A program made the translations under genes and the position numbers. The notes under the pieces are model-generated. The model was not told the DNA's origin, did not search any database, and was given only the letters and a program-made list of their open reading frames with translations. Of a stretch of 29,730 bases of DNA, positions 559 through 27,786 are shown piece after piece (position 1 is the first letter of the stretch; each line of letters begins with the position of its first letter). This DNA comes from a virus, in the IMG/VR virus record IMGVR_UViG_3300029448_000269, positions 1 to 29,730 of that record; one strand, given 5' to 3'.

Positions 559-2361
559 TTATCTACTTATTCCTATTCTTTTTGCGTATTCTGCTGTATA
601 TCCTTTGTAAGGCATATCTTTTGGTTTTATAGATACCTCTTTTGGATTATCTGGTGCTTCAAAACCTTTAGCCTTAGCTTGTGAGTCATATAACTTTTTG
701 CCTAGACTTTTAGCCCCATCTTTTCTTAGATACGTTCTTCTGCTCCAATAATGATGACATCTAGCACCACCTTTATATAACCAAATAGAATATGTGCCAG
801 AATCATCTCCACTTTTTGCAAAGTTTGGATTAACTGCTATATCATCCATTGCTATAATATCTTCTTTACGATATACCTTTCTTGCTTTTACCATTTTTCT
901 ACAAAACTCTCTTGATGTTTTTGAAACCTTTGCAGGACTATAAAAGTATCTCACTAAGAACGTATTGCCTTTTTGTGATTCTTTTCTACTTTCTCCATCT
1001 TGTTCGCTTTCTCTATATGGGGTTGCTTTGCCTACTTCTGCTAACTTGACTTCGTTGTTTATGTTTTCTACAAGTTCATCCATATCATTTTCTTGCTCGT
1101 AGTTTACTTCTACTTCATCAACTAAATCAAAATCTTTTAAAACTTCTTCTTCATCTTGACCTAAATCTATTAGCTTGTCTGCTACTGCATCATCAAGCAT
1201 ATCATCCTTAGAAAGTTTAACTCCTGTTTCTTCTTCTTTAGTTTCTTCATCCTCTACATTGTCTAAGTCTGTAAATTCAAGTGGCTGAAGCGTTTTAAAG
1301 TACAAATTAAGCGATATATCATTGTAAGCTAGTATTTGGTCAAAGTGGTCTATTAAAAGCCCTTGAAAGCCCTTAATTACTAAGTTATCAAATAGAATAG
1401 ATGCTGTTTTTAATTCATCTGCGTTGTTTCCTAATCCTGTGCTATCCTTAATACCAAATAACATAGGACTAACAACCCTATGCGATACCATAATCTTTTT
1501 GGAACTTTCATCACTGAGGAACTGATATTGATTATGAGCATCGCTTAATTGGATAGGGTCAATACTAGCTGCTGTTTCTGCGTTGTCGTTAAAAGCAAGT
1601 ATGAACTTGCCCGCATTACTGCTGCCTGAGAATTTTTGATATATTCTTTTTTCTATCATTTCCCTTTGCTCAGGGTCAGGTGTTCCATTGTTAAAGTTAA
1701 TTAACATACTGGGAGCAAGTCCATTAAGTATGTTGTTTAAATGATAATTAGATATTTCTTCTTCTAGTTCTGCGTATTGTGTTCCTCCTTGATAATCTAC
1801 AGGACTGTAATATTTAAACCCTGCTCTATAAGGCTTTATGTACATTATTTCTAATCCCTCTTTAGAAGTTCCAAATGCAGGTATTCTTTTTAGTTCGTTT
1901 CCTCGTTTGTACTTAGACCAATCACTAAAATAATAATAACCTTCTATCTCTCCTTTTTCATTACACTTTTCTGCTCTTAACGTTTCAATAGGCATATGTT
2001 CTAACTGGACTATCTTTGTTCTGTTTTTAGAGTAAATAACTTGTACTGCACATTGTCCCATTAGTTTTAAATCATAACATAGCTTTCTGGTACAGTCTTT
2101 GTTAAATAAAGACATCATTTGAGCATACTCATTAGGCTTTTTATTTGAATTAGTAGCATCTAAGCCTTTTCCAAATATCATCTCGCTTACGCCATTTATA
2201 ATAGCATTATTAGTAGGGCTTCCGTTGTATCTGTCTATTAGATACTGAAAGTAGTTATTATCTTCTCCGTATTCTATAAAGTCTTTTCCTCTTACTTCTT
2301 TTACTTGTGGTGAAGTATAAGTGCTTAAACTTACAATACTTAAATCTGATTTATTTTTCAT
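559..2361 (-). CDS. phage portal protein with C-terminal Cys/His module
   Basis: 600 aa. The first 370 residues look like a portal protein: a stretch around residues 275-330 containing QYQFLSDESSKKIMVSHRVV and then SPMLFGI resembles the portal clip/stem region, and the size and position near capsid and connector genes agree. Residues 370-460 are an acidic linker. From about residue 470 there is a separate domain with SREFCRKM (483-490) and GGARCHHYW (531-539), conserved-looking Cys/His positions that recall the C-terminal region of Mu F-like minor head proteins. Portal-MuF fusions are known, but calling this one is inference. The start overlaps the stop of the 115-aa gene by 4 bp, so translation is probably coupled. 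Confidence 0.75.
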   Translation of the reverse strand: MKNKSDLSIVSLSTYTSPQVKEVRGKDFIEYGEDNNYFQYLIDRYNGSPTNNAIINGVSEMIFGKGLDATNSNKKPNEYAQMMSLFNKDCTRKLCYDLKLMGQCAVQVIYSKNRTKIVQLEHMPIETLRAEKCNEKGEIEGYYYFSDWSKYKRGNELKRIPAFGTSKEGLEIMYIKPYRAGFKYYSPVDYQGGTQYAELEEEISNYHLNNILNGLAPSMLINFNNGTPDPEQREMIEKRIYQKFSGSSNAGKFILAFNDNAETAASIDPIQLSDAHNQYQFLSDESSKKIMVSHRVVSPMLFGIKDSTGLGNNADELKTASILFDNLVIKGFQGLLIDHFDQILAYNDISLNLYFKTLQPLEFTDLDNVEDEETKEEETGVKLSKDDMLDDAVADKLIDLGQDEEEVLKDFDLVDEVEVNYEQENDMDELVENINNEVKLAEVGKATPYRESEQDGESRKESQKGNTFLVRYFYSPAKVSKTSREFCRKMVKARKVYRKEDIIAMDDIAVNPNFAKSGDDSGTYSIWLYKGGARCHHYWSRRTYLRKDGAKSLGKKLYDSQAKAKGFEAPDNPKEVSIKPKDMPYKGYTAEYAKRIGISR

Positions 2362-2705
2362 ATTACAATATAATCATTATCAAAGACATCATTGCCTGTT
2401 GGAACAGAATATTCTCCACTATTAACAGAATAGCTTGATATAGTTTGGTCTGTACAAAAAACCTTATCTTTATATATTACATTACTTCCTTCTTTTAATG
2501 TTAGGTCATAAAACCTTCCTTCTACTAATACAGGACTTAATGCTTTAGATACTACTAAGTAATTCTTGTCTGTCGTTGTGCTTACTGTGTATGTCGTTGA
2601 GGTGTTAGTTGAATCATCTCTTAAAATCATACTCACACTTGAAGCATAACTTCTAGGAATTATTTTGAAAGTTTGTGCTGATGCAGATGTTGTTAAGTGT
2701 ATCAT
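2358..2705 (-). CDS. small virion-associated protein of unknown function
   Basis: 115 aa, rich in Ser/Thr, with alternating hydrophobic residues suggesting a beta-sandwich or immunoglobulin-like fold, and no signal peptide or membrane segment. It lies between the tail tube and portal genes and overlaps the portal start by 4 bp. It is the first gene of a transcription unit: a strong terminator (2741-2770) ends transcription from the tail tube side, and an ACGTTATA element sits exactly 5 nt before the ATG. A head decoration or neck protein would fit. I do not recognise the family. Confidence 0.55.
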   Translation of the reverse strand: MIHLTTSASAQTFKIIPRSYASSVSMILRDDSTNTSTTYTVSTTTDKNYLVVSKALSPVLVEGRFYDLTLKEGSNVIYKDKVFCTDQTISSYSVNSGEYSVPTGNDVFDNDYIVI

Positions 2706-2710
2706 ACTTA

Positions 2711-2735
2711 TATAACGTATATAGTTTAAATTTTG
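2711..2735 (-). promoter_or_regulatory. late-promoter-like element, copy 5 (115-aa gene and portal)
   Basis: On the minus strand CAAAA (2735-2731), 12 nt, ACGTTATA (2718-2711), 5 nt, then the ATG at 2705. The same layout precedes four other genes. It lies just downstream of a terminator, which favours a promoter over a ribosome-binding signal. Confidence 0.6.
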
Positions 2736-2740
2736 TGTAT

Positions 2741-2770
2741 AAAAAAAGAGGAGTTAGAAACTCCCCTTTT
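2741..2770 (-). terminator. Rho-independent terminator after the tail tube gene
   Basis: Minus-strand GGGGAGTT-TCT-AACTCCTC forms an 8-bp stem (one G-U pair that would be an A-C mismatch on the plus strand) followed by seven T. The strand-specific wobble and T tract orient it with the minus-strand genes. Confidence 0.8.
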
Positions 2771-2825
2771 AAATCAAAATAAACTAAAAATTAATGAAAA
2801 CTTTAATAAATATACAAAAATTATT

Positions 2826-3350
2826 TTAGTTTGGTGTTATTTGAGTTGCACTTGCATCTCCTGTTACTACAGTGCCTGTAATAAAGTAAGGCGGTGCAGT
2901 TTCTTGTGCTACAAGTGTTAAAGTAAAACCACTAAGGTCTCCCATAGCTGCTCCACTTACAATCGTACCACCTGTTACCTCTGCTCCATGCTCTAATCCC
3001 ATTACAAAGTAATTACCATTATAATCTTCTACAAAAACGTGTGGTCTTGCGTGTGCGATTAATTTTAGTTCTTCCTGTGTAGCTTTTTCAAGAAACGTAA
3101 GTGTTAAATTTAATGTTGATTCGTAGAATGTAGTTCCATTTTCTCTTGAGCTGTTTACTGCTGTTTCTAAAGAAGAATTGCCTTTTATATCAAACTGAAA
3201 TAAAGCAGGACTTCCTGCTAAAGCAGTAACTTCTCCTCCTGAAATCGTAGCAGCACCAAGAGTACCGAAATCTGCAAAGTAAACAGTTTTTAAACCACCT
3301 ACTGCCGATTTGCAAGGAACTTTTCTACCTGTTGTTAGTGTACAAGCCAT
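2826..3350 (-). CDS. putative major tail tube protein
   Basis: 174 aa, beginning MACTLTTGRK and rich in Gly, Thr, Ala and alternating hydrophobic residues, the profile of a beta-barrel tube or decoration protein. It follows the major capsid gene and is closed by a strong terminator, as expected for an abundantly made structural protein. Size fits a siphovirus tail tube subunit. The ATG is preceded by AAATT and there is no late-promoter element, so it is probably transcribed by read-through of the weaker hairpin at 3365-3390. A secondary capsid or neck protein is the alternative. Confidence 0.55.
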   Translation of the reverse strand: MACTLTTGRKVPCKSAVGGLKTVYFADFGTLGAATISGGEVTALAGSPALFQFDIKGNSSLETAVNSSRENGTTFYESTLNLTLTFLEKATQEELKLIAHARPHVFVEDYNGNYFVMGLEHGAEVTGGTIVSGAAMGDLSGFTLTLVAQETAPPYFITGTVVTGDASATQITPN

Positions 3351-3364
3351 AATTTTAAGTTGTT

Positions 3365-3390
3365 AAAAAAGGGTAGGGTTAACTACCCCT
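3365..3390 (-). terminator. terminator or attenuator between capsid and tail tube genes
   Basis: Minus-strand GGGTAG-TTAACC-CTACCC (3388-3371) followed by six T (3370-3365). No promoter-like element lies between it and the tail tube start at 3350, so it probably works as a leaky terminator that lowers tail tube expression relative to capsid. Confidence 0.65.
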
Positions 3391-3405
3391 TTATATGTTA
3401 GTTAA

Positions 3406-4329
3406 TTAAGAGTAAAGAACTACGTCAGCACCTACACCGATTTGGCATCCTGCTGTATATCTCATAACTACTCTCACATTTTGTGAACCGTCAATATCTG
3501 ACATATCAATTACCTTCACTTCATTTCTATCGTTTAGTAATCCCGTGCCGAAGAAAAGATTGCTTGACCTTGCAGCGATTGCTCTGTTATCAGCAAAACC
3601 TGATGATTGATAGATTCTAACACCATCAAAAAACAAACCATCTAAAGATTGGTTGTTTCCTTTGTTATCGTAACCTGCAGCTCCTAATCCAGATGCTCCA
3701 AACCCTCCTAAAGCTCTAATGTAAGCTCTATAAATGTTTGATGATACATAAATAATAAGGTCATCTGCTCCGTAAACTGCTGATGGAATAGCATCAACGA
3801 TAGCTCCTAATTGAGCAATTACGTTTGCAGAAGTTACAGTTGCAGCAGATACATCCACTACTGTTGAATCTGCTCCTGCTAATGTAACAAAACCGTCGAA
3901 GTTTCCTTCTCCTGCTGACCCTGACCAAATAGATGATTCAGTAGCACTCGCTACCTCTGCAGCTACTCTTGCAATAACAAAGTCAGAAAATAATTTTGGT
4001 AGGTTGTCGAACGCTGAAAAGCCCATCTGAGCCGCTTCCCAATCCGAATGAAGCTCTTTTTTACAAATTTGTAAATTTACTTGCAGTTCAGCAGGTGTTA
4101 ATACTTTTTCAGTAAGTGTAAGACCTGAAGTTGATGAATCAAAGTCACAGTCAGCACTTCTTACTAAGTTTGAGAAAGCCCCTACTTTCATAGCAGCTTT
4201 GTACTTAATGTTTGGTAGTATGCTAATAGCAGCATCATCTAAGGTTTTTGCTGTCAATAAAGATGCAGCAATATATTTACCTGCGAATTCACCTGCGTAG
4301 CTACTACTTGTAATAGTTGGATTTGGCAT
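3406..4329 (-). CDS. major capsid protein (HK97-like)
   Basis: 307 aa. It lies directly after the acidic coiled-coil scaffold candidate and two genes after the XkdF-type protease, the usual assembly cassette. The sequence is Ala/Ser/Gly-rich with an early helical segment and a mid-region (NFDGFVTLAG near residue 143) resembling the P-domain region of HK97-fold capsids, then a stretch near residues 190-215 with alternating hydrophobics (DDLIIYVSSNIYRAYIRAL). The length is typical of a small HK97-fold capsid without an internal scaffold. A terminator-like hairpin follows immediately. The call combines position, composition and remembered family likeness. Confidence 0.8.
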   Translation of the reverse strand: MPNPTITSSSYAGEFAGKYIAASLLTAKTLDDAAISILPNIKYKAAMKVGAFSNLVRSADCDFDSSTSGLTLTEKVLTPAELQVNLQICKKELHSDWEAAQMGFSAFDNLPKLFSDFVIARVAAEVASATESSIWSGSAGEGNFDGFVTLAGADSTVVDVSAATVTSANVIAQLGAIVDAIPSAVYGADDLIIYVSSNIYRAYIRALGGFGASGLGAAGYDNKGNNQSLDGLFFDGVRIYQSSGFADNRAIAARSSNLFFGTGLLNDRNEVKVIDMSDIDGSQNVRVVMRYTAGCQIGVGADVVLYS

Positions 4330-4340
4330 TTTATTTAATT

Positions 4341-4898
4341 TTAATTATTGGTTAATTTTTTCATTACTCTATCTAAAGTTGTTTCTTTTCGGTTATTACC
4401 GAACCTTACTTTAAATTTCTCTTGAACTTCAGGATTATGAGCAATAGGCTCAACAGCAGGAGTTTCACTTAGTTCTTCCTTAACTTGTTTTGCCATTTCC
4501 TCTTTTTCTTCTTTAACTTCCTTTAGTTCATTAATCATACCTTTGATTTCTTCAACGGCAGAGTTAAATTCTTCTTTCGAAACGTACTTCATTTCTTCTT
4601 TATCTTCTTCCTCTACTTCTTCTTCTTTTTCTTCCTCAGCTTTAATTTCAGCAATAATTCCTTCTTCTTGTATAGAAAGCATTTTTCCATCTTCCATAAG
4701 GTATTCCCCTTTAGGTAAAGCTACTTTTTCATCCTCTGTAAGAATAAATATTTCGTTTCCTGCTTCAAAAGCCTCAGCTTCTAATACAGTTCCATTTTCT
4801 AGCTTAAGTTGTGCTAATTCTAATGCTTGCTTTGGAGATTCTGGTACTTCTTCCCCTAAGTAAGTCTTGATTTTGTTTAAGATTTCTGTTGATTTCAT
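4341..4898 (-). CDS. putative capsid scaffolding protein
   Basis: 185 aa, highly acidic and Glu/Lys-rich. Residues 80-145 are an uninterrupted charged helix suited to a coiled coil, and the C-terminus is basic (RFGNNRKETTLDRVMKKL), as in scaffolding proteins that bind capsid through a basic tail. The N-terminal 80 residues look like a small beta-rich domain containing KLENGTVLEAEAFEAGNE. It sits 11 bp before the capsid gene and heads its own unit, with ACGTTATA exactly 5 nt before the ATG. Function is inferred from composition and position. Confidence 0.65.
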   Translation of the reverse strand: MKSTEILNKIKTYLGEEVPESPKQALELAQLKLENGTVLEAEAFEAGNEIFILTEDEKVALPKGEYLMEDGKMLSIQEEGIIAEIKAEEEKEEEVEEEDKEEMKYVSKEEFNSAVEEIKGMINELKEVKEEKEEMAKQVKEELSETPAVEPIAHNPEVQEKFKVRFGNNRKETTLDRVMKKLTNN

Positions 4899-4903
4899 AT
4901 TAT

Positions 4904-4928
4904 TATAACGTGTTAAAATTTATATTTG
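4904..4928 (-). promoter_or_regulatory. late-promoter-like element, copy 4 (scaffold, capsid, tail tube)
   Basis: Minus-strand CAAAT (4928-4924), 12 nt, ACGTTATA (4911-4904), 5 nt, ATG at 4898. It occupies the 35-bp gap after the 43-aa ORF. Confidence 0.6.
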
Positions 4929-4933
4929 CATTT

Positions 4934-5065
4934 TCAAATTTTACCAATGCCTTGGTTTATCATATTTCCTTTACAGCACTTTACTGAATAGGTTTCATTT
5001 TTACATAAACATCCTCTACGCCCACCTCTTGGGCTTGTTTTGCTTGGTGTTTCAAATTTTTTCAT
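4934..5065 (-). CDS. 43-aa Cys-rich small protein
   Basis: The minus strand reads 43 codons: a Lys/Arg/Gly-rich N-terminus (SPRGGRRG), then CLC (Cys19, Cys21) and KCCKG (Cys30, Cys31), ending QGIGKI. Four closely placed cysteines could bind a metal. Its ATG overlaps the TGA of the preceding 39-aa ORF (ATGA), so the pair is translationally coupled. I remember similar short ORFs with a CLC...CC...QGIG pattern in flavobacterial phages, which supports its being real. Function unknown; it lies between protease and scaffold genes. Confidence 0.7.
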   Translation of the reverse strand: MKKFETPSKTSPRGGRRGCLCKNETYSVKCCKGNMINQGIGKI

Positions 5066-5181
5066 CTTCCTTGACCTCTATATTGTTTTTTATATTTGTT
5101 TTGTCCTACACTCGCATTTTTGCTGTGTGGATGTGATTTTCTTTTAGGTTTTATATAAACACTAACTATCTTTCTCGCCAT
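5062..5181 (-). CDS. 39-aa strongly basic small protein
   Basis: Starts at ATG 5181-5179 inside the end of the protease gene, about 20 bp before that stop, in another frame. The product is very basic (MARKIVSVYIKPKRK at the start, KYKKQYRGQGR at the end) with His-Pro-His in the middle. Its stop overlaps the ATG of the next small ORF. The double overlap, basic composition and remembered recurrence of this pattern beside prohead protease genes argue for a real gene. It may bind nucleic acid or act in capsid assembly; I cannot say which. Confidence 0.65.
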   Translation of the reverse strand: MARKIVSVYIKPKRKSHPHSKNASVGQNKYKKQYRGQGR

Positions 5182-5767
5182 CTTTAATAATTGCTCTAAT
5201 GCCAGATAATTTTTCCTCTGCTTCTTCCTCAAAGTCGTTTACAGGCTCTTTAGGTCTTTCCATCTTGTCTGCAAAGTAACCCTCTATTGAGAATCCTTTT
5301 ACTTTACCTGTTTTAACAAAGTTGTTCCATATTTCATCATTGTTTACTTTTACAGAGCCCATCCAAGTACCTACAGGAACATTCAATCCATACTTACGAG
5401 ATTTGTCGTGTACTTTATCTTCTACTAACCAAGATTCTACTAATGTTAGTCCGTTTATTGTATGTTGGTGTTCTAATGTAGCTTTAGATTGATTTCCGTT
5501 CATTAAGTAAAGCTGTGATGCTTTCTCTACAGTTTGTTTAGAAAAGTATATGTAATATTCTTCATCTCCTTTTTTACGATAGATTGGTTTGTTAGGAATT
5601 AGTAAAGCACCCATTAAAATACGTTTTTCTTTATCTACTTCAGCAAGTTTTATTTCTTCGCTTTTAAGTGCTATAAAATCTTCTTCTATCGCAGGATTCT
5701 CTACAACCGAAATAGCTTCTATTCCTGTTAATTCATCATCTCCTAATATTAATTCAACTATTCTCAT
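5162..5767 (-). CDS. prohead protease, XkdF-type putative serine protease
   Basis: 201 aa. It matches the XkdF family pattern: an N-terminal segment with VVENPAIEEDFIAL, a core with GALLIPNKPIYR, then TLEHQHTINGLTLVESWLVE (around residues 98-117), GTWMGSVKV and KGFSIEG. The conserved His in LEHQH and Ser in GFSIEG are plausible catalytic residues for cleavage of scaffold and capsid during head maturation. It stands between the tape measure gene and the scaffold and capsid genes. Its own late-promoter-like element lies 5 nt before the ATG. The acidic C-terminus (160-201) carries the overlapping start of the 39-aa gene. Confidence 0.85.
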   Translation of the reverse strand: MRIVELILGDDELTGIEAISVVENPAIEEDFIALKSEEIKLAEVDKEKRILMGALLIPNKPIYRKKGDEEYYIYFSKQTVEKASQLYLMNGNQSKATLEHQHTINGLTLVESWLVEDKVHDKSRKYGLNVPVGTWMGSVKVNNDEIWNNFVKTGKVKGFSIEGYFADKMERPKEPVNDFEEEAEEKLSGIRAIIKDGEKDS

Positions 5768-5772
5768 ATATG

Positions 5773-5797
5773 TATAACGTATTAATTTATTTTTTTG
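5773..5797 (-). promoter_or_regulatory. late-promoter-like element, copy 3 (protease unit)
   Basis: Minus-strand CAAAA (5797-5793), 12 nt, ACGTTATA (5780-5773), 5 nt, ATG at 5767. It fills the gap right after the tape measure stop codon (5799). Confidence 0.6.
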
Positions 5798-5798
5798 T

Positions 5799-7529
5799 TT
5801 ATCCTATACTTGCTCCCTCAATAATATTTCTGTCTAATTCTTGTGCTGTGCTTACATCATTAGAAACTACATAAGCCCTAGTTGGTTGTGCAGACTGCCC
5901 TGCAATAACATCTGCTAATTGATTAGTAACTCCTGCACCAACTACATTAAAAGATGGTGCTAGTGAACCAGCTCCTGCTGATGCAATGTTAGATGTTGTT
6001 GCGCCTGCACCATTAGGTTTAACTGACTTTATAGCCTTGACTGCTTGAAAACCTGTTGCTAAAACACCTGCAATACTTGTTACTCTTTGAATTGTAGCAA
6101 AAGGCTCAAGTAAAGTTGTTTCATTATCTAACACTTCTGTAACACCTAAATAAGTATTTGTTAACGCTTGAGCTATTGCAAATGCTTTACCTGCCTTAGA
6201 GTTCTTTCCGAGTATATTAGCAAGTGTTCCAAATGTTTGACTTATTATTGCAATCTTTTGTTGTTGTAGTATTTCTTCTCTTTTTATTTCTTCATCATCT
6301 TCTTTCTGCTGAGCATTTGAAATTAGCTTTTGATAATATAATATTACCTCAGCTTTCTGTGATTCAGTCGCATCTAATTCCTCTAACTCTGCTAATTTCT
6401 TTTCTTGTTCTAATAAAAGTTTTTCTGATTCTTTTTCTGATTTTTGTTCCTTTATTTTTTGTTCAAAATCGTCTCTTATTTTTTGTATATCATTTAGACG
6501 TTTTTCTTCTGTAGCCTTTTCATCATCTATCTCTTTTTGTTTATCTTCTGCTTCTTTTTCTTTTTGGGCTTTTTCTTGATTTACTGCAGTAGTTATTTGT
6601 GTTTGTAGTAATCTTTGACTTCTTAACCTTTTAGTGTCTAAGTTAATTAGTTTAGCTTGTAACTCTGCAAGCTTGTCTTTGTCTTGAATAGTATTTTTAC
6701 CCAGAGCCATTTCTTCCTCTTGAGCTTTAATAAGCAATTTCTGAGCTGCTATCTCTTTTTGTGTAATGTTTTCTTCTATTGCTTGTGCTTTCCTAAGAAG
6801 TTCTATTCTTTCAGATGCGGAAAACCTTTCTCTATCTTCTGCCTTTAATCTTAAATCATTTATATCCCTGTTTGCTTTTGCTCTTTCTACTTGTAAGTCT
6901 CTTTGAATATGATGTGCTTTTTGTCTTGCTCTAGTTACTTTATCTATAGCACTTACTTCACTTACAGTTTCTTTTACAAAATTAGATACTGATTCCGCTG
7001 CACCCTCAAAACCATCTACAATAGTTCCTACTGGGTTTATTATAAATTTCAGCAATCCTTTACCTAAGCTTTTCAAAGAATCCATTGGGTTTGTAAATGC
7101 TTCTATTATTGCTTCCCCAAAATCTGCAAAAGCATCCATTACTTGTTTTGTTACAGCCCCTAAAGCTGCTAAGCCTCTTTGTAGTTTTTCTTGTCCCTCT
7201 TCCGATTGTGTAAATGCTGCTGCTAATGCAGTAACAGTAGCTACAAAAGCACCAATGACACTTGCCATAAGGATTGCATTAAGACCTTTAAAACCAAGTC
7301 CAGCACTTTTTATACCTTTTGTAAGTTCATTAAATTTAGTAATTGCACCGCCTGTAAATTTATCAAGTGTTTTACCAAAGTCACCTTGTTTCTTTGCAGC
7401 CTTTTCTACTTTCTTTTCGTAACCCTCGACTTTTTTTTCTAACTTGGTGTATTCTTTTTGCATTTCATCCAAGTTCTTGACAGCTTCTTTGTATTTTAAT
7501 TCAAAATTTATATATACTACCTTACTCAT
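5799..7529 (-). CDS. tail tape measure protein
   Basis: 576 aa. A long helical N-terminal segment (1-60, Lys/Glu heptads) is followed by a hydrophobic stretch at about 83-108 (ILMASVIGAFVATVTALAAA), a second weaker one near 160-175, then a long charged coiled coil (about 195-400, with repeated EKEAEDKQKE-like runs) and an Ala/Gly-rich hydrophobic region near 430-510. This is the usual architecture of a tape measure that sets tail length and helps DNA passage through the membrane. At 576 aa it predicts a short tail. It follows the baseplate-type gene and a 49-aa ORF. Confidence 0.8.
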   Translation of the reverse strand: MSKVVYINFELKYKEAVKNLDEMQKEYTKLEKKVEGYEKKVEKAAKKQGDFGKTLDKFTGGAITKFNELTKGIKSAGLGFKGLNAILMASVIGAFVATVTALAAAFTQSEEGQEKLQRGLAALGAVTKQVMDAFADFGEAIIEAFTNPMDSLKSLGKGLLKFIINPVGTIVDGFEGAAESVSNFVKETVSEVSAIDKVTRARQKAHHIQRDLQVERAKANRDINDLRLKAEDRERFSASERIELLRKAQAIEENITQKEIAAQKLLIKAQEEEMALGKNTIQDKDKLAELQAKLINLDTKRLRSQRLLQTQITTAVNQEKAQKEKEAEDKQKEIDDEKATEEKRLNDIQKIRDDFEQKIKEQKSEKESEKLLLEQEKKLAELEELDATESQKAEVILYYQKLISNAQQKEDDEEIKREEILQQQKIAIISQTFGTLANILGKNSKAGKAFAIAQALTNTYLGVTEVLDNETTLLEPFATIQRVTSIAGVLATGFQAVKAIKSVKPNGAGATTSNIASAGAGSLAPSFNVVGAGVTNQLADVIAGQSAQPTRAYVVSNDVSTAQELDRNIIEGASIG

Positions 7530-7530
7530 T

Positions 7531-7680
7531 TTATTTGTTTTTAATCTGTTTTAATTCTTTTTTAAGTTGCTGAAACCCTTCTTTGAATGTTTCTGGCATT
7601 TTATATTTGCCCTTTGCTATTTTTATGTTTTCACTACCATCATCAACAAATGCTAGTAAATCTAATATATTCTTTATCAT
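7531..7680 (-). CDS. 49-aa protein before the tape measure gene
   Basis: Starts ATG 7680-7678, overlapping the TGA of the 715-aa gene (ATGA), and ends 1 bp before the tape measure ATG. The product begins MIKNILDLLAFVDDGSENIK and ends in a Lys-rich helix. It fills the gap exactly, and both boundaries suggest coupled translation. The position next to the tape measure suggests a tail-assembly role, but there is no motif. Function unknown. Confidence 0.6.
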   Translation of the reverse strand: MIKNILDLLAFVDDGSENIKIAKGKYKMPETFKEGFQQLKKELKQIKNK

Positions 7681-9824
7681 AGGTTTAATAATTCTATATC
7701 TGCTTCCCCTGTTGTTAAGTCAGTTGTTATACTGTTAATTCTATAATCTGTTCCATTTATTACAAATTTATCTGCTAATGAATAATTAAGTAATATTTTT
7801 AGTGGTAGTCTTGCTTTTATTTTGCTTAGTCGATTCTTACTATCAAATACTTGTGAAATATAAGTAGAGTAATATTCAAGAAATAAACTCTTAGTAAATT
7901 CAGTAGTCTGTGTCCATTCACTAAACTCTTGGTTAAAATTTAATTGATGTAAACTTACAGCAGGGTTTTCATCAACACTATTAAATGGTAAATTTACGTT
8001 ATTCAATTGTTTATGACTTGAAGCCACTCCATTTACGTCTAAAGCATCTACAAAAGCTATACCTCCTGTATTGATGTTTATAGGATAAAATAACATCGGA
8101 CTCCCAATGTAAGGCTCTTGGTTACTATCTACATAATATCCCCATTGTATATTTTTTTGTGTTCCTCCGTTTACATCATTAAGTCTTTCGAATTGCATAT
8201 GACCAAATGGTGCTTCTACTTTATAGATTTCTCCTGCAAGTTGTGTTTCTCCTGCTTTGTATTTTATTTCAGACCAATCTTGACCATTAATCTTACCATA
8301 CTTGTCTGCTATAAATGTTTTTGTGTCTTTAAACTTAAAAACTATTTCTCTAAAAGGTAACGCTACATTAACTTGAGAGGTGTTTATATCAAGATACTCC
8401 GTTATATCGTAAGAAGTACCACCTGCATAAAAATCATTTAAAGGTTGCACTTTAATTACGTTGTTATCTAAAAAAGCTGTTAAATTAAACATCTGAAATA
8501 AACCTGCAAGAAAATCTATAATCTTTATATCAGGCATTTGTCTATCTACATAAAAAGTAAATGTTTCTCCTATTGCTATTGCAGGTGTTCTAAAAAACAA
8601 ATTACTATCTGTACCTCTGTTTGTGTTTATTTTCCAAACTAATTTGTCTAAAGAAATTACTGTTCCTGCATTATCAGGTGTTATTAAGACTTCATATGTT
8701 CCTGCTTCATAAATCCAATCATCATCTTCGTTACCTGAAGATTCATCTAAATTGTCATCACCTACAATATAACTTCCTGTTATGTTATTTTTTTGATAAA
8801 ATAAACTTCCATCTTTTGTTACTCTTAGTGAATAAGGGTCTGTCTCGCCTGTTGCTACATCTATCTCTAATTCAAATCTATCCATATTATCTCTCAAAGG
8901 CTCTCTTACTGTAATAAAGTCTGTTCCTGCAGTAACTAAGAAATCATTAATACTACTTCTAAAGTTATAATCCCCTGTTGAACTTGCTCCACCTGTTGTA
9001 TCTCCGAAACCTGTTATTTTAGTTTCAGGTGTATCTGTTAATTGTTCTACTGCTCCTTTCTTTCTATGAAGCCATAAAAACAAATGGTCAAACTCAGGCT
9101 TAAATGCGTTTTTGAAAAAGTCTGTACTAAAAGTAAAATCAAATTCTGTTAAGGCTTCTATTGCTTCTATTATCTTGTTTACTCGTATAGCATATTTTAA
9201 TTGATTCCATTTTACTCCGTGATTGTGTGAACCACCACCTGTAAAATATGCAAGATTTCCATCATCTGCAGTTTCTGCTGAATTTAAACTATTATAGAAT
9301 AATCTTTGTGTGTGTGTTATAAGTGGTGCTATAATATGATTTGTAGAACTTTGAATGTTTGTTAGTTTTGTTTCTACTGTTGAGGCATCATAGGTTAAAT
9401 CATATGTAGAAAAATCTAAGTCAGCAAGTTTTTTATCTCCTAAAGCATCTTTTATTTCTACTATGTCTCCAAAGAATGTTATTCTATAAGCATAGGGTTT
9501 ATTGTTTTTTAAGTTAACTCCCTCTAATTTTATTTTACCTGATTTGTAAGGTGAGTGGTTTATCTGGATTCTTGCTGTTACTTTTTTACGTGCATCAAAT
9601 CCACTTTGACTAATTGATTCATTACTAACAATATCAAAATTGTAATAGTGCTGAAATAACTTATTATTTGTGGAAGAAGCAGGTAAAGTAAAAGTCTTTG
9701 TAAAACTTGTAAATATTTTTGATATATCCCTTACATTTTGTATAGAATCTGTAAGGCTTACTGTTTCGTCTTTAAATAAGTCTACTCTTGTATCTTGTAT
9801 GTATAATTGTAACTCACGCTTCAT
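7677..9824 (-). CDS. putative tail tip or baseplate protein
   Basis: 715 aa. The N-terminus (ELQLYIQDTRVDLFKDETVS, then SFTKTFTLPAS) is followed by a beta-rich body with segments like GKIKLEGVNLKNNKPYAYRI and a long Gly/Asp/Thr-rich central region; no coiled coil, signal or membrane segment. The gene sits between the 315-aa structural gene and the tape measure. In siphoviruses distal-tail and hub proteins cluster around the tape measure, though usually downstream of it. I recall this N-terminal pattern from flavobacterial phages as an unnamed conserved tail protein. A Dit/Tal-like role is inferred. Confidence 0.55.
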   Translation of the reverse strand: MKRELQLYIQDTRVDLFKDETVSLTDSIQNVRDISKIFTSFTKTFTLPASSTNNKLFQHYYNFDIVSNESISQSGFDARKKVTARIQINHSPYKSGKIKLEGVNLKNNKPYAYRITFFGDIVEIKDALGDKKLADLDFSTYDLTYDASTVETKLTNIQSSTNHIIAPLITHTQRLFYNSLNSAETADDGNLAYFTGGGSHNHGVKWNQLKYAIRVNKIIEAIEALTEFDFTFSTDFFKNAFKPEFDHLFLWLHRKKGAVEQLTDTPETKITGFGDTTGGASSTGDYNFRSSINDFLVTAGTDFITVREPLRDNMDRFELEIDVATGETDPYSLRVTKDGSLFYQKNNITGSYIVGDDNLDESSGNEDDDWIYEAGTYEVLITPDNAGTVISLDKLVWKINTNRGTDSNLFFRTPAIAIGETFTFYVDRQMPDIKIIDFLAGLFQMFNLTAFLDNNVIKVQPLNDFYAGGTSYDITEYLDINTSQVNVALPFREIVFKFKDTKTFIADKYGKINGQDWSEIKYKAGETQLAGEIYKVEAPFGHMQFERLNDVNGGTQKNIQWGYYVDSNQEPYIGSPMLFYPININTGGIAFVDALDVNGVASSHKQLNNVNLPFNSVDENPAVSLHQLNFNQEFSEWTQTTEFTKSLFLEYYSTYISQVFDSKNRLSKIKARLPLKILLNYSLADKFVINGTDYRINSITTDLTTGEADIELLNL

Positions 9825-10771
9825 TATACTATGTTATTAATAATATCGTTAGCAAACTCTAGGTCTAACGTGTATTGAATTAGTTTGTCGTTTACGGATG
9901 TTTTAAATGTTAAAGAGTTTGTAGATATTGTAGATGGTCTCCAGACTGAATTAAAATAAATCCAAACATACTCACTTAACATAATATCTTGTATAACCTC
10001 ATTGTAACATTCGTCTATGTAGTCTGTGTTAAGTGTAACTCTTGTTCTTCCATTTTTGTCAAAGGTTTTGTTTTGATGACTATATCTGCTATAAGATGAA
10101 GATGATTCTACAAATATGTTTCTTTTAAATGTTTCTGATTTTGTGTTAAATGATTCTACGTTTTTTAAAAAGAAATAAAACTCTTGGAACATACCATAAC
10201 GATTTAAATAAACCATTTTTACATTTGTGTATTTAGGATTGCATACTCTTTTTATATCATATGTTCTGTAAGGTGTTGTTATTGTAGTGGTGTTGTTTGC
10301 TGCTATTGTAAACACGTCTAACACTCCTGAAGAATTAACTCCTATAAATTTACCTATTGTGTTGTCAGGCAGATATATAATTCCGTTTCCTAAACAATCT
10401 CCCACATATGTTGGGTCTATTTCATCTCTTAAAATCGGATTGTTACCAAATGTGAAAGTACCATATCCATCTAATCCTGTATGTGTTACTGCACTTTGAG
10501 CTGAGGGTGTACCTCCTCCATCTACCGCTGTAAACGTAGTTATAACGTAAGATATTGCTATTGTATCTGCAACAACTGTACTACTTGTAAAAACTATATT
10601 AACATAGTCTCTTGCTAAACTTGCTATTTCAAATACTGTTCTATTGCTTGTTGCGTTTTTTAGTATGGTATAACGTAACGTTCCATCTATTGTTAAAGCT
10701 AATTGTGCAGATAAATGGTTTGCTGTTGTAACTGTTACATAATAAGGGCTTCTAAGTAGTATCTGTGCCAT
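9824..10771 (-). CDS. conserved structural (tail) protein, function unknown
   Basis: 315 aa, beta-rich, with MAQILLRSPYYVTVTTANHL at the start and a motif VKMVYLNRYGMFQEFYFFLK near residues 190-210. No signal peptide or membrane segment. It overlaps the start of the 715-aa gene by one base, and its ATG is preceded by AATT. The neighbours (tail completion candidates upstream, baseplate candidate downstream) put it in the tail module; a distal tail or baseplate wedge component would fit. Two ACGTTATA octamers inside the gene, near 10540 and 10673, lack the upstream box and the ATG spacing and are probably chance. Confidence 0.5.
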   Translation of the reverse strand: MAQILLRSPYYVTVTTANHLSAQLALTIDGTLRYTILKNATSNRTVFEIASLARDYVNIVFTSSTVVADTIAISYVITTFTAVDGGGTPSAQSAVTHTGLDGYGTFTFGNNPILRDEIDPTYVGDCLGNGIIYLPDNTIGKFIGVNSSGVLDVFTIAANNTTTITTPYRTYDIKRVCNPKYTNVKMVYLNRYGMFQEFYFFLKNVESFNTKSETFKRNIFVESSSSYSRYSHQNKTFDKNGRTRVTLNTDYIDECYNEVIQDIMLSEYVWIYFNSVWRPSTISTNSLTFKTSVNDKLIQYTLDLEFANDIINNIV

Positions 10772-10773
10772 AA

Positions 10774-11292
10774 TTAATTCTTATTCATATTTTCTGGAAA
10801 AAACTTTTCATCTTGTTCTATATCAAAAACAAAAGCATCTCTTAACTCTTGTGGTAAAAACTTAAATGCAGCTTGAAAAGGTTTTGTAAAAAAATAACTT
10901 GGTTTTATTCCATTATTAAAAACACTTCTTGCAACTAAATATCTTAAACTTTTTCTAGGTATAAATTTACCTTGCTTATCCCTTACACCTTTTAACCCTT
11001 TTCTTATTACCCATTGGTCAAATGCTTTAGATGGTGGCATTTTAGAACCATAACTATATGGGGTGTTGTATTTTACCTTTTTACCACTTACTCCTAAGTC
11101 TTGAAAGAAGCCGTATTTCTCCATACTAAACAAAACATCAATACTATCTTTATATCTGTTTACTTTGTATTCCAGACTATCAGAAAGTTTGTTAGTTGTA
11201 TTCTTTTTTTTCTTAACAAGCTCCTGTCTTGCTTCTTTTACTACATATTTAGCAAAAGCATTCATTATCTTTTCTACTTCTTTTAACTGCAT
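10774..11292 (-). CDS. putative tail completion (HK97 gp10-like) protein
   Basis: 172 aa, basic. A helical start (KIMNAFAKYVVKEARQELVK) with a Lys-rich loop and a NKLSDSLEYKVN segment is followed by YGFFQDLGVSGKKVKY and a C-terminal PSYFFTKPFQAAFKFLPQEL. HK97 gp10-type neck proteins share this plan: a helix, a 'tG.L..s' segment, a central 'Y..f.e.Gt' and a terminal 'pf..pa' helix. It overlaps the 156-aa gene by 10 bp and ends 2 bp before the next gene. The resemblance is by pattern only. Confidence 0.5.
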   Translation of the reverse strand: MQLKEVEKIMNAFAKYVVKEARQELVKKKKNTTNKLSDSLEYKVNRYKDSIDVLFSMEKYGFFQDLGVSGKKVKYNTPYSYGSKMPPSKAFDQWVIRKGLKGVRDKQGKFIPRKSLRYLVARSVFNNGIKPSYFFTKPFQAAFKFLPQELRDAFVFDIEQDEKFFPENMNKN

Positions 11293-11753
11293 ACGTTTAT
11301 ATCATTACTTATTAATACATTAAACGTACAAGCTACCCCTGCTAATTGGTTTTCAAACCTTTCGTAAAAGAACTCACAAGATGCTTCACCATCTAACTGG
11401 TATTTATCTGAATATAGATTTCCTTTACTTAACAATCCTACTAACTTATTTACTACCGCTAATTGTGTGTTTAGGATGTCTTGTTCATTGTTGTTACCTA
11501 CAAATACATCTGTTGTTTCATCTTTAGATTGGTCAACTATGTCCATTGCCATTACCGTTATGTTAAAGTTGAGGACTTGTTCTTGTATGTTTACAGAGTT
11601 TACTATTATATGACTTAATGGGAATATAGTTTGTTTAGATAAGTCTATATCAAAGATGTCTCCAGTTGTTACTGTGTTGACATTTTCGTCTGCTAAAAGA
11701 TTTGTCTTTAGTGTTTGTGTTATTTGATAATATCCTCTTACCCCTTGATTCAT
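11283..11753 (-). CDS. putative tail terminator or neck protein
   Basis: 156 aa. Contains VNTVTTGDIFDIDLSKQTIF, LSHIIVNSVNIQEQVLNFNI, MDIVDQSKDE and a C-terminal FENQLAGVACTFNVLI. The pattern of strands around a helix with a C-terminal strand resembles tail terminator proteins. It starts with an ATGA overlap on the stop of the frameshifted tail chaperone product (11750-11752), which supports both the frameshift and tight coupling. I remember the family as strongly conserved in Bacteroidota phages without a firm name. Confidence 0.5.
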   Translation of the reverse strand: MNQGVRGYYQITQTLKTNLLADENVNTVTTGDIFDIDLSKQTIFPLSHIIVNSVNIQEQVLNFNITVMAMDIVDQSKDETTDVFVGNNNEQDILNTQLAVVNKLVGLLSKGNLYSDKYQLDGEASCEFFYERFENQLAGVACTFNVLISNDINVCS

Positions 11754-12011
11754 TTTTTAAATTTGTTTTTTATTTGGTTTGCCTCAATTTCTGCTTTCTC
11801 TTTCATAAATGTTAAAGCATAAAGGCAAGTATGTACTCCTAGTTTAGTGATATCTTCAAATCTTCTAATATCGCCTTGAGCGAGCCCGAAAAGCGATTGA
11901 TACCATCCATATCGTTTACCGAAAGATGCTGTTGCGCTAAGGCTATCTCCTCCTGTCCTAAATAATTCATCATAGCTTTCGATAAGTCCATCCCTAAATG
12001 ATAAAAAAAAA
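11750..12011 (-). CDS. -1 frame extension of the tail assembly chaperone (GT-like fusion)
   Basis: After slippage on the T run at 12011-12003, the -1 frame reads 84 codons without a stop, beginning LSFRDGLIESYDELFRTGGD, with YGWYQSLFGLAQGDIRRFED in the middle and a charged helical end (MKEKAEIEANQIKNKFKK). It ends at TGA 11752-11750, overlapping the next ATG. The predicted fusion is 243 aa: 159 residues from the 0 frame plus 84. The extension has no suitable ATG start at its head and would otherwise be an unexplained open frame running through a gene. This is the G/GT arrangement of long-tailed phages, where the fusion chaperones tube and tape measure. Confidence 0.75.
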
Positions 12012-12480
12012 GTATGGAACTTAACACCGCATCCATTGGCATCTCTTTCATTATATCTGTATCCTCAGCCTTGTAATCTTCTATTAGATATTTGTCTTTA
12101 TATTTTTGTTTTATCGGTCTATAAAGAACCGCCATAGCCCTGTGCATATTTTCATAGTCTCCTATATAAGTATCTAAGTCTATGTATTCCCCAAAAGACA
12201 TATCTTCTAACTTAGGAATAAACCCATAAGACGTTTCATTTATTTTAAACTCTTTAACTAGGTTTGGCTTTTCATTAAACATTGTAGATAATATTTCTGT
12301 AACATCTTTAATGCTCGACGCTTTCATTCCTAATATAACATCACCTCTTAGCCCACAAAATATCTCAATCATTTTTATTGCTAAGAAATTTTCATCTTTA
12401 TTATCTTCCTGTATCTTTAAATACTTTTGATATTGTCCTAATGTTATTTCACTTAATGTATCTGGTACTTCTAGTTTCAT
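11839..12480 (-). CDS. tail assembly chaperone, 0-frame product
   Basis: 213 aa. It begins MKLEVPDTLSEITLGQYQKY and has FGEYIDLDTYI and MHRAMAVLYRPI in the middle, a pattern I associate with flavobacterial phage proteins near the tail genes. Beyond the T run the 0 frame adds a short helical tail ending LKAILEDLKISLN. It carries no enzymatic motif. The evidence for the chaperone role is the programmed -1 frameshift signal near codon 157-159 and the position before the tail genes. The ATG is preceded by ACGTTATA at 5 nt, so this gene heads the tail transcription unit that runs to the tape measure. Confidence 0.65.
   Translation of the reverse strand: MKLEVPDTLSEITLGQYQKYLKIQEDNKDENFLAIKMIEIFCGLRGDVILGMKASSIKDVTEILSTMFNEKPNLVKEFKINETSYGFIPKLEDMSFGEYIDLDTYIGDYENMHRAMAVLYRPIKQKYKDKYLIEDYKAEDTDIMKEMPMDAVLSSILFFYHLGMDLSKAMMNYLGQEEIALAQQHLSVNDMDGINRFSGSLKAILEDLKISLN
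12003..12011 (-). promoter_or_regulatory. slippery site for -1 ribosomal frameshifting
   Basis: Nine consecutive T on the minus strand, read CTT TTT TTT TAT in the 0 frame. T TTT TTT (12010-12004) is a perfect slippery heptamer. Both frames stay open and protein-like downstream. Confidence 0.75.
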
Positions 12481-12485
12481 ATATA

Positions 12486-12510
12486 TATAACGTATAAATA
12501 ATTATTTTTC
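12486..12510 (-). promoter_or_regulatory. late-promoter-like element, copy 2 (tail unit)
   Basis: Minus-strand GAAAA (12510-12506), 12 nt, ACGTTATA (12493-12486), 5 nt, ATG at 12480. It sits in the 35-bp gap after terL. Confidence 0.6.
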
Positions 12511-12515
12511 GTTTG

Positions 12516-13679
12516 CTACTGTATTGCATATCTTCCAAAGTTTGGTCTACTTAAAATGCTGTATGTTGCATATCTAACTGCATCTATAATATGGTTGTTT
12601 TTATCTTCAGGTGTGTTTGTTAGTTTGCCAGACTTATCTTCTTTCCATTTGTAGTTTCTGAACTCCTGTATCGCGTTATTGCTTTTTGTTGTTATGTTTA
12701 TTTTATATCTTTTTAATAAATCAATCCCTGCGTTTATTGAATCCCTACCTTTTAAACTTGGTCTAATATTCCAACCCATACGCCTTAACTCCTCAATTAG
12801 TCTAGGTTCGCTACTATCCATATATAATTGGTTTCTATTTATCCCTACTTCTTTAAATGTGTTGTGTAGGTCTTTAGTTGTCATTTGTGTTCTGTAAAGA
12901 TGTTCTTTTATGTAAAGGTTATAATCTTTTGTGTAAACACTTACTAAAGTTGAGGGGTCATTAGAATATCCTGCATCTGCCCCATATGCTATAAACTCTG
13001 CATCCTCTGGTATTTTACTACATTCATTGTAATTAAATATAGTTGCCTTACTTATTCCTTTTAAACCTAATCCATATATCTGCCAATACTGCTCGTCTGT
13101 ATCTTTAAGGCGTTCTATTTCTGTTTTAATGCTTTGTTCTAAAAAAGGATTATCTAAATAAGTAGTCCTATAAAAGTCGCAATCATCTCTTGTAATTACT
13201 TTGTCATATATCCAGTGGTACTCGTCACTTGGGTTGTAGTCTATTATTATTTTTTCATCTGTTCTAAATATAAGCTGTTGCCAATCCTCCCAATTTAACT
13301 CATTAGCTTCATTGATAAACAAAAGATTCCTTTTACGCCCTCTTACTTTTTGTGGCATATCTAAACTAATAAACTCTATTAAGTTTCCAAATAGTTTGTA
13401 TTCGCTATTTGACTTGTTGTGGTTTAACTCTTGATAGATGTTTAGTTTTCTGAGAATATCTAAGAAGTCTCTCATTACAGAAGCCCTTAAACTAGGGAAT
13501 GCTTTACGACATATAGTAATTGTTTTGTTTTTATTTCGAGGTGTATATTCTAATATTATCCATAACAATATATTATAAGTCTTGCCAGAACGTGTTCCCC
13601 CTTGCTCGACGATTATTTTCTTGTCACTGTTTGTTAAGTGTTTATATACCTTGTTAGTCTGTATCTTCTGTTTTATCAA
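12516..13679 (-). CDS. terL: terminase large subunit
   Basis: 387 aa, the length of Terminase_3 (PBSX-type) large subunits. The N-terminal ATPase shows Walker A GGTRSGKT (27-34) and Walker B LLFINEAN (119-126). The C-terminal RNase H-like nuclease shows Asp235 in GADAGYS, Asp288 in YMDSSEP and Asp366 in HIIDAVRY, the three expected metal-binding acids. It cuts and pumps DNA into the prohead through the portal. It overlaps terS by 26 bp. The gene is complete and all key residues are present. Confidence 0.95.
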   Translation of the reverse strand: MIKQKIQTNKVYKHLTNSDKKIIVEQGGTRSGKTYNILLWIILEYTPRNKNKTITICRKAFPSLRASVMRDFLDILRKLNIYQELNHNKSNSEYKLFGNLIEFISLDMPQKVRGRKRNLLFINEANELNWEDWQQLIFRTDEKIIIDYNPSDEYHWIYDKVITRDDCDFYRTTYLDNPFLEQSIKTEIERLKDTDEQYWQIYGLGLKGISKATIFNYNECSKIPEDAEFIAYGADAGYSNDPSTLVSVYTKDYNLYIKEHLYRTQMTTKDLHNTFKEVGINRNQLYMDSSEPRLIEELRRMGWNIRPSLKGRDSINAGIDLLKRYKINITTKSNNAIQEFRNYKWKEDKSGKLTNTPEDKNNHIIDAVRYATYSILSRPNFGRYAIQ

Positions 13680-22334: not shown

Positions 22335-22366
22335 AAAAAAAAAGAGGTCTACCTAAGCAAACCTCT
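22335..22366 (-). terminator. Rho-independent terminator after the NinG-like gene
   Basis: Minus-strand AGAGGTTTGC-TTAG-GTAGACCTCT pairs over 10 bp (two G-U) followed by a run of T (22343-22335). It separates the NinG-like gene from the replication genes. Confidence 0.85.
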
Positions 22367-26046: not shown

Positions 26047-26194
26047 TTTTATTTTTTTTATTTGTCCATAATTGTTCGCCTTTCCATTCTACCTCTACAA
26101 TATATTTATCTTCCTCTGCATAGTGTTTGATTGTATGCGAGTGAGGTGTAGGTAAGGCATCTACTTTTTGTAGAGCTTCTTTTCTGTTATTAAT
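26030..26194 (-). pseudogene. start-less paralogue fragment of the 120-aa gene
   Basis: In the -1 frame relative to the end of the 540-aa fibre gene an ORF of about 54 codons reads NNRKEALQKVDALPTPHSHT, then IVEVEWKGEQ, mirroring EEQALSKINALP, SHKHTIVKL and YHVDVLWKD of the 120-aa protein. No ATG, GTG or TTG opens it; upstream it runs into the fibre gene until an in-frame stop. It is either a gene that lost its start when the fibre end moved in, or a domain reached by frameshifting or a non-standard ATT start at 26194. It overlaps the next gene by 17 bp. Confidence 0.45.
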
Positions 26195-27783
26195 ATATCT
26201 ACTTCTGAATCTGTCATCTCTTTAGTGTTATATACTCTTATATCTATTACTTTTCCGAAGAAACTACTTGAGCCACTATCTGCAAGGCTTAATGTATTTA
26301 AAGTTCCATTAGCAGGTACGTTTCCACTATTTTGTCTATTTGCGAGAGAGCCATCTATATAAGCAGAATATCGACCTTGTTTATAAGCTAAAGCTAATTT
26401 GTGCTTTCCTAAAGGATTTATTGCTGAATGAAACAAGTATTGTATGCCTCCAACTGATGATAAAAAAGATATAGATTGACTTGCCGACCTATAATAAATT
26501 TGTATTGTTGCTCCTGTTCCAAAAATAGCAATAGGATATGAATTTGTTGTACTTATGTTTGGTATTTCTATTTCACAATATAATATTCCCTCCTCACTTG
26601 GTAGAATAGAAGATGTACCTGCACCATTACAGGTTTCTGCTGCTCTTGTTTGTGTGCTTCCGTTTGTTGGTATGTGGCTTGTTAAATAGCTTTGTTGCTC
26701 AAATTGGAATCCATATACATAAACATTTTTTCCTTTAGCAGCATTTGCTGATGACCAAAAAATTGTACTTGTTGAAGGAGGAATTCTTACAGCTAACGTT
26801 CCAACTAAATCCCCTGCATCTATCGTAACTACAGTTGAACATCTAAACCACCCATTTCCGTAACTTTCTATATTTGCTCCTGATGTTGGAGTTGTGCCAT
26901 TTTCTAAATCAAAATAAGCAAAATTATTTGTAGCACCTGTAAAGGAATCTGCACCTAAATAAATAAAATTATTAGTACCTTTTTTAGCAAACACTGATAT
27001 ACTATAAGAACCTGCACTTCCAAGTGTTATGCTTTGTGAACTTAAAAAAACTTGATTATAATCACCTTTTCCTGAAAATAAATGTGCGTTGTTAATCCCT
27101 TCAGGAGATATAGCAGCGTTAAGTGTATCTGTACTACCAAAATTACTATATGTGCTTATATCATTACTGTAAGGCAATAAATTTGTGCTTTGTGGCTCTA
27201 ATAAAAGTGATGGCTTTGTGTTTACTAAACCTCCCTCTATTTCATAATTTAATCTTGCTCTGTCGCCTGTTACTTGCTTAAGAGATACATTGTCTATTTT
27301 AAAAGTACCTGTTAATGAATTAGGTGTAAACCTTATAAAATTTGCAGTAGTTCCTACAACAAAAAGAGTATGTGTTCCGTTGCTATCAACAGAAGTATCT
27401 TGAAAAGGGTATCTAACTTTAATTGAATCACCACTTTTTAAATCTGATACTGTAAATGTTAGTTTGTAAGTTACGCCTGTAGGCGCAGTTATTCCTTGTT
27501 GAGCAAAATCAGTATTTCTATTAGCATTATCAAATACTAATTTGCCATTACTTATACTAATGTTACTTCCTTGTGTCCAATGTGCATCAACAGAAAAATC
27601 ACCATTAGTAACTAACTCACTACCATAATAACCTACTCTTTCTATTAAACCCTCACTATTCACACGAGTAGCATCCGAATCTCTATTAAAGTCAAAATCA
27701 GCATCCGTTGAGTTAGGAAATACAGAATGTACTTTGCCTGAACTAACTGCTGAGGGAATCATAAATAAACTTGGTATATCCAT
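26161..27783 (-). CDS. tail fibre/adhesin with carbohydrate-binding and LamG-like regions
   Basis: 540 aa. After a short start, residues 18-45 (FPNSTDADFDFNRDSDATRV) lead to a CBM-like unit (GYYGSELVTNGDFSVDAHW to IDNVSLKQ, about 52-170), a linker with LLEPQSTNLLPYS, a second sandwich with NFIYLGADSF and WFRCSTVVTI, a conserved HIPTNGSTQTRAAETC, and a C-terminal LamG-like domain with KLALAYKQGRYSAYIDGSLA. No collagen repeats, catalytic motif or membrane segment. It is a paralogue of the gene before it. It probably binds host surface glycans, though such proteins also occur as non-virion secreted adhesins. Ends 3 aa past the slippery-looking AAAAAG. Confidence 0.7.
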   Translation of the reverse strand: MDIPSLFMIPSAVSSGKVHSVFPNSTDADFDFNRDSDATRVNSEGLIERVGYYGSELVTNGDFSVDAHWTQGSNISISNGKLVFDNANRNTDFAQQGITAPTGVTYKLTFTVSDLKSGDSIKVRYPFQDTSVDSNGTHTLFVVGTTANFIRFTPNSLTGTFKIDNVSLKQVTGDRARLNYEIEGGLVNTKPSLLLEPQSTNLLPYSNDISTYSNFGSTDTLNAAISPEGINNAHLFSGKGDYNQVFLSSQSITLGSAGSYSISVFAKKGTNNFIYLGADSFTGATNNFAYFDLENGTTPTSGANIESYGNGWFRCSTVVTIDAGDLVGTLAVRIPPSTSTIFWSSANAAKGKNVYVYGFQFEQQSYLTSHIPTNGSTQTRAAETCNGAGTSSILPSEEGILYCEIEIPNISTTNSYPIAIFGTGATIQIYYRSASQSISFLSSVGGIQYLFHSAINPLGKHKLALAYKQGRYSAYIDGSLANRQNSGNVPANGTLNTLSLADSGSSSFFGKVIDIRVYNTKEMTDSEVDILITEKKLYKK

Positions 27784-27786
27784 ATC

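Follow-up and report, generated by a model that had tools for sequence, protein, structure and literature searches.

A conserved poly-T slip site in a putatively recoded, tail-chaperone-like gene of long-tailed Bacteroidota phages

On the minus strand of a viral contig (IMG/VR record IMGVR_UViG_3300029448_000269, positions 1 to 29,730, here called the window), the gene following that of the terminase large subunit contains a run of nine Ts, beyond which two reading frames stay open. This arrangement raises the questions of whether the frames are joined by programmed recoding, which machine would slip at the run, and what the products would do. An earlier note, made from the letters alone, had proposed a programmed -1 frameshift producing a tail chaperone fusion, and its description of the locus was reproduced in every particular (Table 1): the place of the T run on the minus strand, the end of the 213-residue 0 frame, a -1 frame open for 84 codons after the slip, the absence of a start at its head, and the ATGA overlap, in which the TGA closing the -1 frame shares bases with the ATG (at 11753) of the next gene. 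The -1 frame is free of stops from before the T run as far as this TGA, and its earliest ATG in the window lies 65 codons past the run. Slippage at T_TTT_TTT would join 159 residues of the 0 frame to 84 of the -1 frame, and the 243 residues so computed equal the length predicted earlier. The 0-frame tail that overlaps the T domain has 54 codons, and the stretch read in two frames, put at about 160 bp, measures 164 nt.

Table 1. Coordinates of the recoded gene and its neighbours in the window
Feature	Position	Strand	Remarks
0-frame product (G-like), 213 aa	11839..12480	-	ATG at 12480, stop at 11839
Slip site, nine Ts	12003..12011	-	0-frame reading CTT TTT TTT TAT; contains in-frame T_TTT_TTT
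T domain, -1 frame	11750..12004	-	84 codons + TGA; no start at its head
Dual-frame coding stretch, 164 nt	11839..12002	-	Less change at all codon positions (relatives)
ATGA overlap of -1 stop with start of next gene	11750..11753	-	Sequence
Terminase large subunit, directly before recoded gene	12516..13679	-	Same order in P12024S
Next gene, 156 aa, phrog_30964 (unknown function), perhaps tail terminator	11283..11753	-	Role inferred
172 aa, phrog_29822; sub-threshold HK97 gp10-like tail component match	10774..11292	-	
Tape measure protein, 576 aa	5799..7529	-	phrog_9483 tail length tape measure protein, E 2e-15

Relatives were collected by a scan of viral contigs, which gave 593 sequences of which 80 were kept, and by a second scan seeded with gene 38 of phage P12024S, which contributed a further 63, more distant, relatives; 126 sequences, the window included, were complete enough for analysis and reach down to about 27 % identity. 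The T run is nine long in 125 of them and ten long in the other, and in all 126 the -1 frame stays open, extending 80 to 92 codons past the run, with a strongly conserved product pattern (FFLSFR...KWGWYQSI..LAQGDI.RFE). The +1 frame meets a stop nine nucleotides after the run throughout this group, so that other slippage products would terminate immediately; in distant lineages the distance from the run to this stop varies. Elsewhere in the relatives a T9 run occurs in just one of 301 other non-redundant genes (320 were called, 19 of them being the recoded gene), T runs of at least seven are under-represented in these other genes, and in-frame T7 is found 14 times where 26.7 are expected. Set against that single T9 among 301 genes, its presence in 125 of 126 copies of the recoded gene is in excess of chance.

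Both frames bear the marks of selection. Pairwise differences per codon at positions 1/2/3, counted for close pairs, are 0.026/0.011/0.155 in the 0 frame upstream of the run, 0.041/0.007/0.037 in the overlap (in -1 positions) and 0.018/0.003/0.049 in the region read in the -1 frame only. Change in the overlap is low and about equal at sites silent in either frame, from which it follows that both frames are selected there; the normal third-position excess that the 0 frame shows upstream of the run appears in the -1 frame past the 0-frame stop, so that the -1 frame is selected there too. The alignment of both frames for purifying selection, proposed at the outset as a check, thus came out in favour of the recoding, and the 164-nt stretch is a clear-cut example of dual coding. 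Errors are common in homopolymers, and an independent assembly with a different T count that joined the frames permanently would have told against a programmed shift; the same T9 recurs, however, in many assemblies made independently and in clusters that have diverged from one another, and with both frames selected it is scarcely conceivable that the split reflects a decaying gene or a sequencing error, the latter being ruled out by conservation.

The second possibility is that the -1 frame constitutes an independent gene, expressed from its own start or by re-initiation with no fusion being made, and one annotation agrees with it, since P12024S_39 as annotated begins at an ATG inside the -1 frame. 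Among the 126 sequences, though, this frame has no conserved start codon, many of them lack any start before codon 55 after the run, and the conserved FFLSFR segment precedes any start that the frame contains. We accordingly rejected internal initiation and regard a separate gene as very improbable.

Far more distant copies were sought by HMM searches of Bacteroidia genomes in which neither run length nor the heptamer was required, and these yielded T9, T7, one T5 and continuous-ORF forms. Very distant Bacteroidia prophages retain the G part, the T run and the T domain in the -1 frame. The junction reads GTT TTT TTT TGC in L273, NNT TTT TTT TTN in L276 (= L279), L280-L284, L277 and L292, and GAC TTT TTT TTT CAG in L290; in each of these the run is exactly nine long and the T domain lies in the -1 frame, and three codon phases are represented among them. 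A clade of seven sequences (L293-L296 and L305-L307) has exactly seven Ts, as CAT TTT TTT A. A viral scan with L277 as query found no relative, and the neighbours of the distant genome copies are mostly without an informative PHROG match. We also note a contig-edge fragment (L285:1-480) in which the T domain is intact in the -1 frame and the junction has just five Ts. In L278 the T domain lies within one continuous ORF of 209 aa directly after the terminase gene; L286, L287 and L289 resemble it with weaker scores, and eight predicted viral proteins match both the G and T models, the T matches being weak (E-values 0.12 to 1.7). These suggest that some relatives carry the T domain in a single continuous ORF. 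A further T-domain match (L288), in a long unrelated ORF, is probably due to chance. Retention of the slip site across very distant relatives argues that the recoding is real, and the two frames very probably represent programmed recoding, neither chance nor error. Of the fusion proposed earlier, the programmed -1 joining on a plain poly-T run is strongly supported by conservation, by the codon-position statistics and by the apparent in-frame fusions in relatives; its identity as a tail chaperone is plausible and is taken up below.

Which machine slips is a matter of the length and phase of the run. We tabulated 179 distinct junctions, requiring seven or more consecutive Ts and an in-frame heptamer; the window and all 179 thus hold an in-frame T_TTT_TTT, for the 179 as a condition of the survey, and the table cannot reveal other slip sites. 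Clustering at 40 % identity gives nine clusters, eight of which have at least nine Ts and one seven, and those with at least nine span codon phases 0, 1 and 2. Other in-frame T_TTT_TTT sites at the same loci are T7 in 75 of 111 cases, and about 16 % have nine or more Ts, a generous background, since non-coding frames are counted in it, as is one junction or more of the recoded gene. By a binomial estimate, eight of nine clusters at nine or more Ts would be expected a few times in a million if the clusters were independent, a figure weakened by the shared descent of the deep clusters, which are not fully independent. The difference in codon phase between clusters suggests that the T run was rebuilt. 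The form T_TTT_TTC is silent in both frames and keeps the heptamer, and is seen only with a ten-T upstream run; no short T_TTT_TTC form was found in the viral collection, scanned in the sequence context of the main group. There is no Rfam match near the slip site, and nested folds beside it are no better than those of shuffled sequences (mean z -0.15 to 0.46).

These patterns bear on two mechanisms. In a purely ribosomal -1 shift, two tRNA-Phe would slip together on an in-frame U_UUU_UUU and the extra Ts would be incidental. The heptamer present in the window and, by the survey condition, at every tabulated site is consistent with this, as are the under-representation of in-frame T7 itself in other genes and the clade with exactly seven Ts, which fits the ribosome better than RNA polymerase; moreover, the lambda-type tail chaperone shift is ribosomal (PMC5009743). 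Against it are the retention of nine or more Ts in eight of nine deep clusters while the codon phase changes, the restriction of the terminal TTC codon to sites with a longer upstream run, and the failure to detect nested RNA structure at the site, and we give a purely ribosomal shift not quite an even chance. RNA polymerase is the other candidate. Insertions in transcription occur mainly at A and T runs (PMC5574713), the Escherichia coli enzyme slips on T runs from T7 upward, with a preference for poly(T) (PMC6260861), and nine is the usual length at which selection against A or T runs becomes evident in many bacteria (PMC1088944). The run length kept in most lineages is about as much a sign of RNA polymerase as of the ribosome; tandem tRNA slippage on U_UUU_UUU is the main alternative, and on these sequence patterns it is slightly favoured that polymerase slippage, in which an extra U is copied at T9, contributes in the T9 lineages. 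As a tentative proposal, held at somewhat less than even, RNA polymerase slippage at T9, in place of the ribosome, may set the ratio of the tail chaperones across a large set of Bacteroidota phages, with the related T7 clade being ribosomal. If true, one gene family would have switched between transcriptional and translational slippage. The T7, T9, T10, T12 and continuous-ORF forms make a natural series for testing how phages set a protein ratio, and the family could show whether transcription does a job so far known from translation.

The nature of the products can be approached from their predicted structures. The 0-frame product matches phrog_32199, of unknown function, over residues 1-168 with an E-value of 1.2e-23. 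An AlphaFold2 model of the 213-aa 0-frame product has a mean pLDDT of 78, dropping under 50 at residue 183 and beyond; the predicted fold spans residues 1 to about 170, mainly as helices with some strands, and the 0-frame tail after the slip site is predicted to be disordered. The T domain is predicted to be helical, with low confidence. Searches of Pfam, NCBIfam and the PDB gave no convincing match, no PDB chain standing out for the G model, and the fold search returned phage proteins of unknown function together with two annotated tail assembly chaperones, both weakly (E-values 0.056 and 0.57). Another weak fold match to the G part is a 191-aa protein of Flavobacterium phage 6H (L269:10048-10927), followed by about 300 unannotated bases with an open -1 frame and a stop just after a T6 site; since the -1 frame stops right after the T6, this protein was rejected as a relative and left uncounted.

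The recoded gene is part of a module that runs from the terminase through the recoded gene, two small genes and two larger tail-like proteins to the tape measure protein, the sequence of which contains a coiled coil and a hydrophobic segment. It lies directly after the terminase gene and some 4.2 kb upstream of the tape measure gene, and in P12024S it likewise follows the terminase. The order of the wider segment (559-13679, minus strand) is unusual in that tail genes precede head genes: the terminase, tail genes and tape measure gene are followed by those for the protease and portal. The head maturation protease (5162-5767) and an ORF at 4341-4898, also on the minus strand, match two parts of phrog_24921; a gap of about 263 nt with no single continuous frame separates them, and they are perhaps a protease/scaffold pair. 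The sole other T9 run on the minus strand (22335-22343) is intergenic and follows a hairpin (AGAGGT...ACCTCT), the whole resembling an intrinsic terminator. At 26161-29730 (minus strand) two adjacent proteins, the second of which runs off the window, both match phrog_5939, a tail PHROG, and may be paralogues.

Standard expression of the gene would yield the 213-aa G-like protein, and in a fraction of cases reading would slip back by one at the T run to give the 243-aa protein, which would keep the folded G part and exchange the disordered 0-frame tail for the conserved 84-residue T domain. If the analogy with phage lambda holds, both forms, present in a fixed ratio, would serve as tail assembly chaperones; the G part would bind the tape measure protein, and the T part would bring in the tail tube protein. 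We infer that both products are made, as well as their ratio and their chaperone role. The architecture, the tape measure gene in the module and the weak fold matches make it plausible that the pair is a G/GT-like tail assembly chaperone of long-tailed Bacteroidota phages. The fusion could be real and the protein a different assembly factor: the gene sits directly after the terminase, away from the tape measure gene, and has no clear homology to a known chaperone. The G/GT-like anatomy, the tape measure gene that the module contains and the resemblance in fold, weak as it is, to annotated tail assembly chaperones speak against this, and we think it unlikely. Programmed recoding with a tail-chaperone-like role, whichever machine slips, is the reading in which we have good confidence.

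G/GT recoding is a well-known mechanism. The pair resembles lambda gpG/gpGT and similar pairs in consisting of a short protein and a -1 fusion with overlapping frames and no second start for the -1 domain, in having a slip site within the overlap that is conserved among relatives, and in belonging to a phage with a tape measure gene, and thus a long tail, in the same module. It differs from gpG/gpGT in that the two have no detectable sequence relation, in that lambda uses a mixed slippery heptamer where a T run is found here, in the 0-frame tail that overlaps the T domain, and in position, the G/GT place being between the major tail protein and tape measure genes. The pair would work like G/GT and is a candidate member of that class, since the searches gave no homology beyond weak fold matches and the gene lies away from the customary position next to the tape measure gene.

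No tail chaperone using RNA polymerase slippage was found in the literature searched, and the open-access literature contained no description of the family or of its T-run site that the searches could find. The nearest cultured relatives, and the only cultured phages among the matches, are Nonlabens (Persicivirga) phages P12024S and P12024L, in which genes 38/39 form a homologue after the terminase gene with an identical T9 and the T domain in the -1 frame; their 0-frame tail is shorter (25 codons), an internal ATG is present, and in P12024S the pair is annotated as two hypothetical proteins. Switching between transcriptional and translational slippage is known for dnaX. RNA polymerase slippage on runs of nine As or Ts has been described for Thermus dnaX, Shigella mxiE and IS elements (PMC1088944). 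As in those systems, there are nine Ts or As, an extra nucleotide would join the frames, and in eight of nine clusters a run of nine or more is kept over codon phase; unlike them, the recoded gene includes a clade with T7 and is read here from DNA alone. With G/GT recoding already known, the novelty would lie in the protein family, in the poly-T site that it uses, in the retained length of that run and in the possible part played by polymerase slippage. The pair offers a slip-site rule and a protein family for annotating long-tailed Bacteroidota phages and prophages.
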